Shown one piece after another: positions 2,474 to 7,128 of a stretch of DNA of 39,925 nt. The notes beneath the pieces were generated by a model. The model was not told the origin of the DNA. It saw only the letters and a list, made by a program, of their open reading frames with translations, and ran no database searches. The DNA is from Euryarchaeota archaeon RBG_16_67_27 (GTDB taxonomy: Archaea > Thermoplasmatota > Thermoplasmata > RBG-16-68-12), in NCBI GenBank assembly GCA_001800745.1, contig MGVZ01000028.1, positions 1 to 39,925 of the forward strand, written 5' to 3'. A program made the position numbers and the translations under genes. The stretch's first letter is position 1. Every line of letters begins with the position of its first letter.

Positions 2474-3022
2474 TCACTCCGTGTCGTTCTCCCGCGTCCC
2501 GTACGGGGTCGAGTACTTGTACGTCTCCTGGATCCGCTCGATCCCGTCGATCTCCCGGACGTAGCCCGCGACCGCGGGCGGGACGAGGGACGTCCAGTCC
2601 CCGCCCTTGAGCATCCTCCGGCGGACCTCCGTGCCCGAGAGGGCCTCGCGGTCGACGAGGGGCGGGGAGAGGACCTTCACGCCGTGCTCCCGGAACAGCC
2701 GGACGACGAGGTCCGAGTTCGTGTACACGACGTCGAAGTGGGGGACGAGGGACCGGATGTGGCTCACCCATACGCTGTGGACGTGTGTGTCGGGGATCGG
2801 GACGATGTGGTACTCGTGGATGCCTGCCTCGTCGAGGCAGCGCTTGATCATCTCGTACCGTTCGCCCGCGGTGAATGGGTTCTCCCCCGTGTGGCTGTAC
2901 TGGGCGGACCCGATCCCGAGGATGACTTCGTCGTTCGTCTCGAGGATCCGCCGGATCATCGCGAGATGGCCGTTGTGGAACGGCTGAAACCTCCCGATGA
3001 AGAGGGCGCGGGAGCCGGTCAC
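2474..3022 (-). CDS. nadM: archaeal nicotinamide-nucleotide adenylyltransferase
   Basis: Transfers AMP from ATP to NMN, the last adenylylation step of NAD synthesis, in the cytoplasm. GRFQPFHNGH at residues 10-19 carries the HxGH-type nucleotidyltransferase motif, and LSGTEVRRRM near the C terminus is the ISSTxxR-like phosphate-binding motif. The length (182 residues) fits archaeal NadM. The ORF track starts upstream at 3094, but the GTG at 3022 sits directly behind a strong GGAGGAGGAG and overlaps the stop of the upstream small gene as GTGA. The extra N-terminal residues in the longer frame are the out-of-frame reading of that small gene. Last gene of a lonB-small ORF-nadM unit. Confidence 0.93.
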   Translation of the reverse strand: MTGSRALFIGRFQPFHNGHLAMIRRILETNDEVILGIGSAQYSHTGENPFTAGERYEMIKRCLDEAGIHEYHIVPIPDTHVHSVWVSHIRSLVPHFDVVYTNSDLVVRLFREHGVKVLSPPLVDREALSGTEVRRRMLKGGDWTSLVPPAVAGYVREIDGIERIQETYKYSTPYGTRENDTE

Positions 3023-3147
3023 TCGATCTCCTCCTCCATGAAGTGGTCGATGTACTCGCACTCCATCGTAAGGAATTTCCGGCAGCTCTCGCACCGGCCG
3101 TCGTCCCGGTCCGGCCTCAGCTCGGGGTTGAACTCGTAGCAGGGCAT
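3019..3147 (-). CDS. 42-residue cysteine-rich (putative zinc-binding) protein
   Basis: Too short for the ORF track. The frame starts MPCYEFNPELRPDRDDG and continues with CESC, a spacer and MEC, ending in an acidic EEEIE tail. Cysteines fall at residues 3, 19, 22 and 30, a pattern able to hold one zinc ion. Its start lies 55 nt after the lonB stop with GGAG just upstream, and its TGA overlaps the GTG start of nadM. That overlap, and the fact that nadM needs the GGAGGAGGAG coded by this gene, argue for a real, translationally coupled gene. I do not recognise the family. It could be a rubredoxin-like knuckle or a small RNA- or protein-binding adaptor. Confidence 0.65.
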   Translation of the reverse strand: MPCYEFNPELRPDRDDGRCESCRKFLTMECEYIDHFMEEEIE

Positions 3148-3202
3148 CGGCTCCGAGAGCTCGGAGGGGTCCGGGCCGAACGCGATCGCGGTCCCTCCCG
3201 CG

Positions 3203-5182
3203 TCACTGCGGCACCGCGGACCCCGGCTTCTCCGAGGTGACCTTCGGGACGAGGGCCGCGAGCTTGCTGATCAGCCCCGATTTCTTCGGGCCCACGAGGA
3301 CGTGATCGAGGACCTCGCTCAGCGTGTCCACGGGGACGATCTCGATGCGCCCGCGGTACTTGTCCTCCAGGAGCACGTCCCGGAGGTTCGGGCGCGGGAT
3401 GATCACCTTCCGGATCCCCATCTCCGCCGCGGCCTCGATCTTCGCCGTGATGCCGCCGACGGGGAGGACCTGCCCCCGGACGCTCAGGCTGCCCGTCATC
3501 GCGACGCTCTGGTCCACGGGGACCTCCTCGAGCGCGCTGATCACCGCCGTGGCGACGGAGATCGACGCGCTGTCCCCCTCCGTGCCCTCCCGGGATCCGA
3601 CGAACTGGACGTGGATGTCGTGGTTGGAGACGTCCTCGCCCGTGTACTTCTTGATCAGGGCGGCGACGTTCTCCACCGCTTCCTTCGCGATCTCCCCGAG
3701 CCGACCCGTCGCGATGATCCTGCCGCCCTGTTTCGTCTGGGCGGGCGTGACCTCCGCGGCGATCGGCAGGATGATCCCGGAGAACTCGGCCATCGAGTTG
3801 TCCCCGACGAGCACCGCGAGCCCGTTGACCATGCCGACGATCGTGCCCGTCGTCTCGTACATCTGGTACTCCTTGCCGCGCTCGATCATGCGGTCTGCGA
3901 CCTGCTGCTCGAGGGACCGCGCGATCCGCTTCCCGGCGAGGACGTGCTTCGCGAGGACGAGGGGCGCACCCTCTTCCTGGGCGATGTCCCCCGCGACCCG
4001 GATCAGGCCTCCGAGCTCGCGGAGACGGAGGGTCAGCTGGCCTCGCCGGCCCGACCGGCGCTGGGCCTCCCGCAGGATCTCGACGACCGCGCTCCGGTCG
4101 AAGTGGGGGATCTTCTTGTCCTTCGAGACCTCCTGCGCGACGAACCGGACGAGCTTCATCCGGTTGTCGTCCGTGTCGAACATCGTGCTCTTCATGTAGA
4201 TCTCGTAGCCGTACCCGCGGATCCGCGAGCGCAGGGCGGGGTGCATGCCCTGGACGGCGTCGAGGTTCCCCGCGGCGACGAGGACGAAGTCGCACGGGAC
4301 GGCCTCCGTCTTGACCATCGCGCCGCTCGACCGCTCGCTCTGCCCGACGATGGAGAACTTCTTCTCCTGCATCGCCGTCAGGAGGGACTGCTGGCTCTCC
4401 ATCCGGAGAACGTTGATCTCGTCGACGAACAGGACGCCCTTGTGCGCCTTGTGGATCGCGCCCGGCTCCACCCGCTCGTGTGCGGGGGTCTCGAGTCCGC
4501 CGCTCTGGAACGGGTCGTGCTTCACGTCGCCGAGGAGGGCGCCTGCGTGGCTCCCCGTCGCGTCGATGAACGGGGGCATCTCGTCCACGGTGTGGGTGAC
4601 CAGGAGCTTGGGGACCATGAGGTTCTCCTGGCGGTGCCCCGTGTACCGCGTCGCGATGTAGATGATCGCGGCGACGAGGATCCCGAAGAGGATCGTCGTG
4701 GGCTCGAACATCTTCGTGTTCGGGTCCCCGGACCAGTTGTACGACAGGATCACGGAGAGACCGATGATGAAGAAGATGATCGTCATCATCATGGAGGCCT
4801 TCTGCTCCCGGCGCTGCATCGCCTCCGCCTTCTGCGCGTTCACGATCTCGCGCCCCTTCGCCGCGGGCACGACGCGGATCTTGGGCTCGTTCGGGTCCTC
4901 CGGGTTGTGGTAGACGACGATGTCCTGGAGCTCGTCGCGGGGCAGGAGCTCGGTCATCGACCGGGCGAGCATGGACTTCCCCGTGCCCGGGTCGCCGATC
5001 AGCATGACGTGCCGCTTCTGCTCCGAGGCCTTCCGGATGACCTCGACCGCGTGCTCTTGGCCGATGACATGGTCGACGAGCCGCTCGGGGATCTTGACCT
5101 CCGCCGTGCTCCGGAAGTCGAGCTTCTCGATCCACGAGTCCACGGGCGAGTGCTCTTCAGAATCCTTCGCGCTTCCCGCCAT
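3203..5182 (-). CDS. lonB: membrane-anchored ATP-dependent protease LonB
   Basis: Archaeal LonB unfolds and degrades proteins at the inner face of the membrane. From the ATG at 5182 the protein has 659 residues. It shows Walker A GDPGTGKS (about 63-70), two hydrophobic segments inserted in the AAA+ module (about 129-147 and 162-180, the LonB hallmark), Walker B VLFVDEINVL, and a C-terminal protease domain. The catalytic Ser lies in EGDSASIS and the catalytic Lys in GGITAKIEAA. The ORF track uses a GTG at 5200; the ATG at 5182 follows AGGGAG more closely, and either is possible. All expected active-site elements are present. First gene of a unit with the small Cys protein and nadM. Confidence 0.95.
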   Translation of the reverse strand: MAGSAKDSEEHSPVDSWIEKLDFRSTAEVKIPERLVDHVIGQEHAVEVIRKASEQKRHVMLIGDPGTGKSMLARSMTELLPRDELQDIVVYHNPEDPNEPKIRVVPAAKGREIVNAQKAEAMQRREQKASMMMTIIFFIIGLSVILSYNWSGDPNTKMFEPTTILFGILVAAIIYIATRYTGHRQENLMVPKLLVTHTVDEMPPFIDATGSHAGALLGDVKHDPFQSGGLETPAHERVEPGAIHKAHKGVLFVDEINVLRMESQQSLLTAMQEKKFSIVGQSERSSGAMVKTEAVPCDFVLVAAGNLDAVQGMHPALRSRIRGYGYEIYMKSTMFDTDDNRMKLVRFVAQEVSKDKKIPHFDRSAVVEILREAQRRSGRRGQLTLRLRELGGLIRVAGDIAQEEGAPLVLAKHVLAGKRIARSLEQQVADRMIERGKEYQMYETTGTIVGMVNGLAVLVGDNSMAEFSGIILPIAAEVTPAQTKQGGRIIATGRLGEIAKEAVENVAALIKKYTGEDVSNHDIHVQFVGSREGTEGDSASISVATAVISALEEVPVDQSVAMTGSLSVRGQVLPVGGITAKIEAAAEMGIRKVIIPRPNLRDVLLEDKYRGRIEIVPVDTLSEVLDHVLVGPKKSGLISKLAALVPKVTSEKPGSAVPQ

Positions 5183-5238
5183 CTCCCTAACCGGTCCCAC
5201 CAGAAGGGTTCGACTCGGTCGAATAGACAGCGGACCTA

Positions 5239-5308: not shown

Positions 5309-5842
5309 TCAGGCGGCGCGGGACGCGATCAGCTCCGCGAGCTTCGCGAACGCATCCTCGACGTTCTCGCCGGTCTTCGCGGAGGTCAGGAGGAACGTCG
5401 CGCCGTGGGAGTCCGCGAGGGACTTCACGTCCCCGTCGGACACGACGCGCTCGTCCTTGAGGTCGACCTTGTTCGCGAGGAGCTCGACCGGGATGTTCCC
5501 CGTGACCTTCACGACGGCCGCGATCCACTCCTCGAGGTCCGTGAGGGTCTCCTTCCGCGTGACGTCGCACACGGCGAGGACGCCCTGGGCCCCGTGGAAG
5601 TACGCCTCCTTGAGGAGCTCCCGGAAGCCCTTCTCGCCCATGATGTCCCAGATCGTCATGTCCACGTCGACGGCCGCGCCGTTGCCCTGGATCACGATCT
5701 CCTTCTTCGAGACCTTCGCCCCGAGGGTCGAGATGTAGCGGTCCTCGAACTGGTCGTGGACGAACCGCCGGATCAGGCACGTCTTCCCGACCGCGCCTTC
5801 CCCGACGAGGCAGATCTTGACCTTCATCTTCTGGCGATCCAT
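5309..5842 (-). CDS. Ras/Rab-like small GTPase (array member 1)
   Basis: A 177-residue complete small G domain. The P-loop is GEGAVGKT (14-21), the switch I Thr is in YISTLG (T39), G3 is WDIMGE (65-70), G4 is NKVD (124-127) and G5 is TSAK (153-156). The WDxxG motif and Y-x-x-T-x-G switch place it in the Ras/Rab branch rather than with Era or TrmE. The residue matching Ras Gln61 is Glu (E70). There is no C-terminal cysteine for a lipid anchor. It is more similar by eye to the third array member (shared KKEI, FRELLKEAYF, LANKVDL) than to the second. GGTG 5 nt before the ATG supports the start. The cellular role is unknown; no GAP, GEF or Roadblock gene is seen nearby. Confidence 0.9.
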   Translation of the reverse strand: MDRQKMKVKICLVGEGAVGKTCLIRRFVHDQFEDRYISTLGAKVSKKEIVIQGNGAAVDVDMTIWDIMGEKGFRELLKEAYFHGAQGVLAVCDVTRKETLTDLEEWIAAVVKVTGNIPVELLANKVDLKDERVVSDGDVKSLADSHGATFLLTSAKTGENVEDAFAKLAELIASRAA

Positions 5843-5883
5843 CCCGCACCTCAGTCCGATTCTTTCCGACGCAGGAAGGTCAG

Positions 5884-5891
5884 ATTATAAA
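5884..5891 (-). promoter_or_regulatory. TATA box of small GTPase 1
   Basis: The minus strand reads CTCCTTTATAATCTGA, a near-consensus archaeal TATA box 45 nt before the ATG at 5842. It leaves a short leader that contains GAGGTGCGGG. The element lies within the 103-nt gap after GTPase 2, so this gene can be transcribed independently. Confidence 0.6.
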
Positions 5892-5945
5892 GGAGTTCCT
5901 TCGCGGTTATCTCCATGGATAACACGCGTCCTCCGGGAGGGTCGT

Positions 5946-6500
5946 TCACGCGTCGGGCCGGGAGGCGATCGCGCTCGCGATTGCGAGGAACGCCTCGTCC
6001 ACGCCTCGTCCCGTCCGCGCCGACGTCAGGTAGTGAGGGGCCTGGTGCATCGCGCCGAGCCGCGCGAGCTCCTCCTCGGTCACGACGATGCGCTCCGCGA
6101 GGTCGCTCTTGTTCCCGAGGAAGACGATTGGCACGCTCCCGATCTGCTTGCGGACCATCGTGACCCAGCTGTTCAGGTCGTAGAACGTATCCTTCCGGGT
6201 GACGTCGCACACGGCGAGGACGGCCTGCGCGCCCTCGAAGTACGCGTCGCGGAGGAGGGAGCGGAAGCCCTTCTCGCCCATGATGTCCCAGACCATCATG
6301 TCGAGGGTCGCGGGCGCGCCCTTCCACACGACGTCCGTCGTCTTCTTCGTGACCTTCGTGCCCACGGTCGCGACGTAGCGGTCGTCGAAGTTGTCCGTCA
6401 CGAACCGCTTGATCAGGGAGGTCTTCCCGACGGCGACGTCGCCGACGAGGCAGATCTTCGCCTTGACGTGCTTCGGCGTCGCCTCGACGGCGGTCATCAT
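5946..6500 (-). CDS. Ras/Rab-like small GTPase (array member 2)
   Basis: A 184-residue G domain from the ATG at 6500. The P-loop is GDVAVGKT (20-27), the switch I Thr is in YVATVG (T45), G3 is WDIMGE (71-76), G4 is NKSD (130-133) and G5 is TSAR. It is the most divergent of the three: it has LGNKSDL rather than LANKVDL, a Trp in the central strand (VVWKGAP) and a ten-residue N-terminal tail. Glu again stands at the Ras Gln61 position. No lipid-anchor cysteine is present. The ORF track starts at a GTG at 6506, but the TATA box at 6523-6530 puts transcription initiation at about 6500, suggesting leaderless translation from one of the two adjacent ATGs (6500 or 6497). Confidence 0.9.
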   Translation of the reverse strand: MMTAVEATPKHVKAKICLVGDVAVGKTSLIKRFVTDNFDDRYVATVGTKVTKKTTDVVWKGAPATLDMMVWDIMGEKGFRSLLRDAYFEGAQAVLAVCDVTRKDTFYDLNSWVTMVRKQIGSVPIVFLGNKSDLAERIVVTEEELARLGAMHQAPHYLTSARTGRGVDEAFLAIASAIASRPDA

Positions 6501-6522
6501 CGCCACCCGAGGGACCGTTTAC

Positions 6523-6530
6523 TGTAATAA
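6523..6530 (-). promoter_or_regulatory. TATA box of small GTPase 2
   Basis: GGCTTATTACAGTAAAC on the minus strand, centred about 27 nt before the ATG at 6500. The spacing predicts a leaderless or nearly leaderless mRNA. Confidence 0.55.
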
Positions 6531-6564
6531 GCCGTGACCCCGCGAGTATCGGCGATGATAATTC

Positions 6565-7128
6565 TCACTCTTCCGGCACGACCTTCCTCGCGTAGCGCTC
6601 CTTCACGATCCGTTCCCCGAGGGACTGGAACGCGAGCTCGACGTTCACGCCGGACTTCGCGGAGGTGAAGTGGAACGAGCTGTCGTACGCGCGGGCGGCC
6701 TGGATCAGCTCCTCCTCGCCGAGCTCCGGTTTCTCGAGGTCGACCTTGTTCGCGAGGAACTCGATCGGGATCCGGCCTGTGACGGAGTACACGCCCTCGA
6801 TCCAATCGTCGAGGTCGTCGAGCGTGCGCTTCCGTGTGACGTCGCAGACGGCGAGGATCCCCTTCGCGCCGTAGAAGTACGCCTCCTTGAGGAGCTCGCG
6901 GAAGCCCTTCTGCCCCATGATGTCCCAGATCGTCATGTCGATCCGGAGCTCCCCGGTCCCGTCCGTGGCCTGGGTCAGGATCTCTTTCTTCGACACCTTC
7001 GTTCCGAGGGTCTGGATGTATTTGTCGTCGAAGTCATCCAGGACGAACCGGCGGATGAGGGACGTCTTGCCGACCGCGGCCTCGCCCACCAGGCAGACCT
7101 TCATCTTCATCCGCTTGAATTCCACCAT
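6565..7128 (-). CDS. Ras/Rab-like small GTPase (array member 3)
   Basis: A 187-residue G domain. The P-loop is GEAAVGKT (15-22), the switch I Thr is in YIQTLG (T40), G3 is WDIMGQ (68-73), G4 is NKVD (127-130) and G5 is TSAK. Unlike its two neighbours it keeps Gln at the Ras Gln61 position, so it may hydrolyse GTP differently. A short insertion (QATDGTGE) before the WDIMG strand is partly shared with member 1. The C terminus is charged (KVVPEE) with no cysteine. The ATG at 7128 has little Shine-Dalgarno sequence; an ATG six codons in (7110) follows GGTGG and is an alternative. It is the gene nearest the ribosomal operon and is read away from it. Confidence 0.9.
   Translation of the reverse strand: MVEFKRMKMKVCLVGEAAVGKTSLIRRFVLDDFDDKYIQTLGTKVSKKEILTQATDGTGELRIDMTIWDIMGQKGFRELLKEAYFYGAKGILAVCDVTRKRTLDDLDDWIEGVYSVTGRIPIEFLANKVDLEKPELGEEELIQAARAYDSSFHFTSAKSGVNVELAFQSLGERIVKERYARKVVPEE

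Follow-up and report, generated by a model that had tools for sequence, protein, structure and literature searches.

Bacterial Lon proteases have small dedicated regulators, including SmiA (PMC9204741), HspQ, and LarA (PMC10665427). For archaeal LonB, our searches of the literature (archaeal reviews and papers) returned no named adaptor and no named zinc protein beside LonB. In haloarchaea, the gene HVO_0784 is co-transcribed with lonB (PMC9263693), and Haloferax volcanii encodes C(P)XCG microproteins, i.e., proteins of < 70 amino acids with four cysteines predicted to bind one metal (PMC6562870, PMC10716476, PMC11241148). Ruc (Rv0991c), a bacterial protein linked to proteostasis genes, holds one zinc with four cysteines and carries a flexible tail (PMC7448276). 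Here, we describe a four-cysteine (Cys4) microprotein encoded between lonB and nadM in a 39,925-nucleotide (nt) stretch of Euryarchaeota archaeon RBG_16_67_27 (contig MGVZ01000028.1, positions 1 to 39,925; this whole stretch is hereafter called the window). Judged from its sequence and those of its relatives, it is a member of an uncharacterised new small-protein family of a known kind, the archaeal Cys4 microproteins. Our preferred reading of its function, which we put forward tentatively, is that of a metal-binding accessory protein, either an adaptor or an activity regulator, acting on LonB.

The C(P)XCG microproteins resemble the new family in being archaeal, small, and built around four cysteines. 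Membership in that group, which requires two C(P)XCG motifs, was nevertheless rejected, as the new family has only one CxxC (usually CxHC) with no glycine after it, two single cysteines, and no Pfam match. Ruc differs in its two-by-two zinc-ribbon spacing and longer disordered tail, and is a bacterial protein linked to chaperone genes rather than to Lon. HVO_0784, although co-transcribed with lonB, is a hypothetical CAAX prenyl protease family protein and not a Cys4 microprotein. SmiA, HspQ, and LarA offer a possible working analogy, being small and dedicated to a protease of the Lon type, but their targets are bacterial, and the cited papers describe none of them as a Cys4 metal protein or as linked to an archaeal lonB. 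An HspQ/YccV-type Lon regulator was rejected as an identity for the microprotein, as Pfam scans covering 24 members showed no YccV-like domain.

The core open reading frame (ORF) of 42 amino acids lies on the minus strand (3019..3147, from ATG 3147 to TGA 3019), translates to MPCYEFNPELRPDRDDGRCESCRKFLTMECEYIDHFMEEEIE, and includes cysteines at positions 3, 19, 22, and 30. An earlier note on this DNA had placed a 42-residue protein with four cysteines at the same coordinates, which are right, without stating the strand; the plus-strand reading of this interval encodes nothing relevant. Homologues were detected in 44 of 100 related genomes (E < 0.01; best E = 7e-18 outside of the window's own population), and a search of the source genome yielded no second homologue. 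An identical copy in one of these genomes (G011) sits on a near-identical contig: the locus on G011:C55 (L002) is nearly identical to the window (L001), and the same genome also has its own 78%-identical copy (L048), which suggests that this assembly is contaminated by the window's population. Independently of synteny, a scan of GTDB (one genome per species, ~85,000 species) with the pattern CxHCR[KH][YF]LT found 110 stretches, 83 of which encode a relative, and 80 loci were kept. The titles of these loci are nearly all Thermoplasmata or Euryarchaeota archaeon, along with one Methanomassiliicoccales and one metagenome-assembled genome titled "bacterium". A clear match (> 57 bits) was also obtained for 32 genomes in a sample of 390 from the phylum, including two from another class (family f36). 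Weaker profile matches of 18–19 bits in other genomes were considered noise, as several contain stops, and the f46 genomes checked at lonB have no related frame after it. Besides roughly a dozen families of Thermoplasmata, the range of the microprotein takes in a second class of the phylum.

None of the four cysteines varies among the 46 non-redundant sequences, in which N7, L10, D16, H21 (serine in the window), L26, T27, and F36 are near-invariant, and amino acid identity across families is about 40–50%. Within the genus, the core frame displayed a non-synonymous rate (pN) of 0.165 for a synonymous rate (pS) of 0.50, i.e., a ratio of 0.33, compared to 1.35 and 1.39 for the other two frames. 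By this measure, the microprotein frame is under purifying selection. Since homologues occur in independent genomes, at the same locus, with invariant cysteines and coding-type substitutions, the resemblance is beyond chance and the ORF is, on these comparisons, a real gene; a chance ORF can be ruled out from conservation and pN/pS. This provides strong support, from homologues, conserved locus, and selection, for the earlier proposal of a real and overlooked small protein in the lonB–nadM operon, and the test it had set for itself, i.e., conservation in relatives, returned a conserved frame, conserved cysteines, and a conserved lonB neighbour.

The immediate upstream neighbour is lonB, encoding the archaeal ATP-dependent Lon protease (3203..5200, minus strand, with a mechanically called start codon; Pfam Lon_C 2.8e-30, LonB_AAA-LID 3.2e-8), and the downstream one a nadM-type nucleotidyltransferase gene (2474..3022, minus strand; Pfam CTP_transf_like 9.7e-22). 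As reported earlier, 55 nt separate the lonB stop (TGA 3205-3203) from ATG 3147, the microprotein and nadM overlap as GTGA (nadM GTG 3022-3020, microprotein TGA 3021-3019), and the ribosome-binding site of nadM, GGAGGAGGAG (3028..3037, minus strand), lies within the last microprotein codons, 5 nt ahead of the nadM GTG. An [AG]TGA overlap with nadM is found in 17 of 17 genus members. On the other side, a 4-nt overlap between the lonB stop and the microprotein start is common in family f15; seen in many members, it suggests that translation of the microprotein is coupled to that of lonB.

With overlaps on both sides and its final codons doubling as the nadM ribosome-binding site, the ORF could in principle serve chiefly in cis, to move ribosomes from lonB to nadM. 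We consider this very improbable: a mere leader or coupling ORF is largely refuted by the selection acting at the protein level, i.e., ~40–50% identity across families, invariant cysteines, and low pN/pS, and by the retention of the gene where nadM is elsewhere. All 80 GTDB-scan loci have lonB directly upstream, and 78 have nadM as the next gene downstream; the remaining two offer < 330 nt of downstream sequence. Adjacency to nadM has, however, been lost in four lineages in which the gene still follows lonB. The next gene is a phosphoribosyltransferase in G074 and an NFACT_N gene in G037 (L085 5216-6406), both with nadM on another contig, and a TM_HPP gene in G057, while nadM is found 1.8 kb further on in G058. 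Conversely, none of the loci examined had the microprotein gene next to nadM and away from lonB. The constant upstream position of lonB, together with the retention of the microprotein in several lineages whose nadM has been replaced or displaced, favours a linkage to lonB more than to nadM. A partner or regulator of NadM (nicotinamide mononucleotide adenylyltransferase), e.g., in a zinc- or redox-linked control of nicotinamide adenine dinucleotide (NAD) synthesis, would account for the 78 adjacent loci and for the conserved [AG]TGA overlap within the genus, but is hard to reconcile with the at least four lineages just described, nor do relatives lacking the microprotein lack nadM; this role thus appears improbable. 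The earlier suggestion of an adaptor for either the protease or NAD synthesis therefore stays inferential, with the neighbourhood evidence favouring the LonB side.

In relatives without the gene, lonB and nadM are often abutting (gap of 3–91 nt), and no related or cysteine-rich frame was found between such abutting genes. One genome inside the window's clade (G025, L172) displays a clean loss, with a lonB–nadM gap of 8 nt. Placed on the lonB tree, the distribution requires 7 presence/absence changes. Since the position never varies, we infer an old gene at one fixed site that was lost several times; repeated independent insertion is less likely, given the identical site in all lineages and the clean lonB–nadM junctions in relatives without the gene.

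The protein is probably longer than the core ORF. In the genus, the start codon is mostly 39 nt upstream of the window's ATG (27–36 nt in a few members) and follows a GGAG-type site. Beyond the genus, most members have no methionine at the window's ATG, and frames open further upstream with ATG, GTG, or TTG. The corresponding 13-codon N-terminal extension in the window (ATC GCG TTC ... SELSEP; 3148..3186, minus strand) is preceded by a likely ribosome-binding site, GGGAGGGA (3192..3199, minus strand), with 7 nt between GGAGG and ATC, and GGAG/GGGG-type sites stand at the equivalent place in genus relatives. Within the genus, the extension evolves as coding sequence, with a pN/pS of 0.41 over 12 codons, and of 0.16 over its last 8 codons, for which the other two frames give 5.1 and 2.4. 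The gene thus probably starts at 3186 and encodes 55 residues, so that the start at 3147 and the length of 42 residues given earlier are probably incomplete. Position 3186 is ATC in the window and mostly ATG, GTG, or TTG in genus relatives; in the source organism, either translation initiates at this ATC or the start has moved to ATG 3147, and the cysteine module is intact under both choices. An ATC at the family's conserved start position, behind a good Shine-Dalgarno sequence (window 3184-3199, minus strand), represents a possible non-canonical start in its own right.

The resulting protein is ~55 amino acids long in the window organism and 50–85 elsewhere, and is acidic (median isoelectric point 5.0 across 107 distinct cores). 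Its cysteines follow a C-x15-C-x2-C-x7-C spacing and may form a metal-binding module, to which their conservation lends indirect support. The zinc-knuckle spacing proposed in the earlier note is wrong: a CCHC knuckle needs C-x2-C-x4-H-x4-C, and no zinc-knuckle family appeared in the Pfam scans. More broadly, Pfam searches of the single sequence and of the alignment, as well as the scans of 24 members, gave nothing above chance, NCBIfam gave no match to the sequence or alignment, neither library holds a model for the microprotein, and the best hit of a sequence search of the PDB was at chance level (E 0.3). A SprT-type zinc ribbon (PF17283) was rejected, as it scored 14.7 bits, below the cut-off of 28.1, and in only one of the 24 members. 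AlphaFold2 models include a short helix past the last cysteine (33-41) and otherwise little regular structure, and the two predicted models do not provide a confident fold name. More generally, some predicted archaeal zinc fingers are reported to bind a different metal or no zinc at all, a distinction that AlphaFold2 cannot make (PMC11241148).

Two further roles bear on this cysteine module. The main functional rival is a stand-alone redox- or metal-responsive holdase or chaperone of the Ruc/Hsp33 type, in which zinc held by the resting Cys4 module would be released upon oxidation and the acidic, flexible parts would bind unfolded proteins; the shared operon with LonB would then reflect a common role in protein quality control. 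NFACT_N proteins are of the RqcH/NEMF type, a ribosome quality-control family, and the presence of such a gene next to the microprotein in G037 fits this reading, as do the four invariant cysteines, the flexible acidic flanks, and the protease in the operon. Ruc also sets a precedent, as a protein made of a ~50-residue Cys4 module and a disordered tail can function in this manner (PMC7448276). However, the cysteine layout is unlike the Ruc-type zinc ribbon (C8/C11, C29/C32) and the tails are short here (10–40 residues), and we regard a holdase as unlikely. The order C-xn-C-x2-C-x7-C also resembles iron-sulfur motifs, in which three cysteines are clustered and one is distant. A [4Fe-4S] sensor or a small nucleic-acid-binding regulator could then be considered, and there are regulators among the small zinc-finger proteins of archaea, e.g., Brz of Halobacterium (PMC2253796). 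An acidic protein would nevertheless be unfavourable for nucleic-acid binding, and no fold or family was matched, which leaves little probability for a sensor or regulator of this type.

For the LonB accessory role, we infer metal binding, contact with LonB, and an effect on proteolysis. The microprotein would be translated from the lonB transcript as a flexible acidic N-terminus, a compact Cys4 metal-binding module, a short helix, and an acidic tail. As a soluble accessory factor, its metal-held module might dock on hexameric LonB or a client, with the acidic tail contacting LonB, by analogy with the small unrelated proteins SmiA, HspQ, and LarA acting on bacterial Lon. Because it would be co-translated with LonB, has never been seen separated from it, and is dispensable in some lineages, a specificity or activity factor would fit better than a core subunit.

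Several observations weigh against this role. Many Thermoplasmatota have LonB without the microprotein, which is therefore not a general requirement of LonB, and no LonB–microprotein fusion was seen. Two same-genus copies, L044 (G003) and L045 (G009), are fast-evolving (pN 0.40–0.42), and in the latter Cys22 is replaced by serine, with the frame and an ATGA overlap with nadM retained; both appear to be decaying. Model confidence was moderate (predicted local distance difference test, pLDDT, of 70 for the window protein and 80 for a family member), and Foldseek searches of both models against the PDB returned no match at E<=10, and thus no solved fold. Finally, operon inertia alone could account for the linkage to lonB.

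Directly upstream of lonB, on the same strand, the window also contains three tandem Ras-family small GTPase paralogues (5309-7128, minus strand; Pfam Ras E 5e-40, 1e-34, and 9e-31), and such a run of eukaryote-like GTPases in an archaeon may merit separate attention.

A conserved family such as this one can be overlooked when its members are short, often begin at a non-ATG codon, and are embedded between overlapping genes. In its boldest form, which we consider doubtful, the proposed role would be that of a metal-gated Cys4 microprotein of long standing in Thermoplasmatota, which would set LonB specificity according to metal or redox state and be the first adaptor or regulator dedicated to an archaeal LonB. 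Overall, a microprotein kept behind lonB and absent from protein-family libraries represents a concrete and testable candidate for a LonB helper or regulator.
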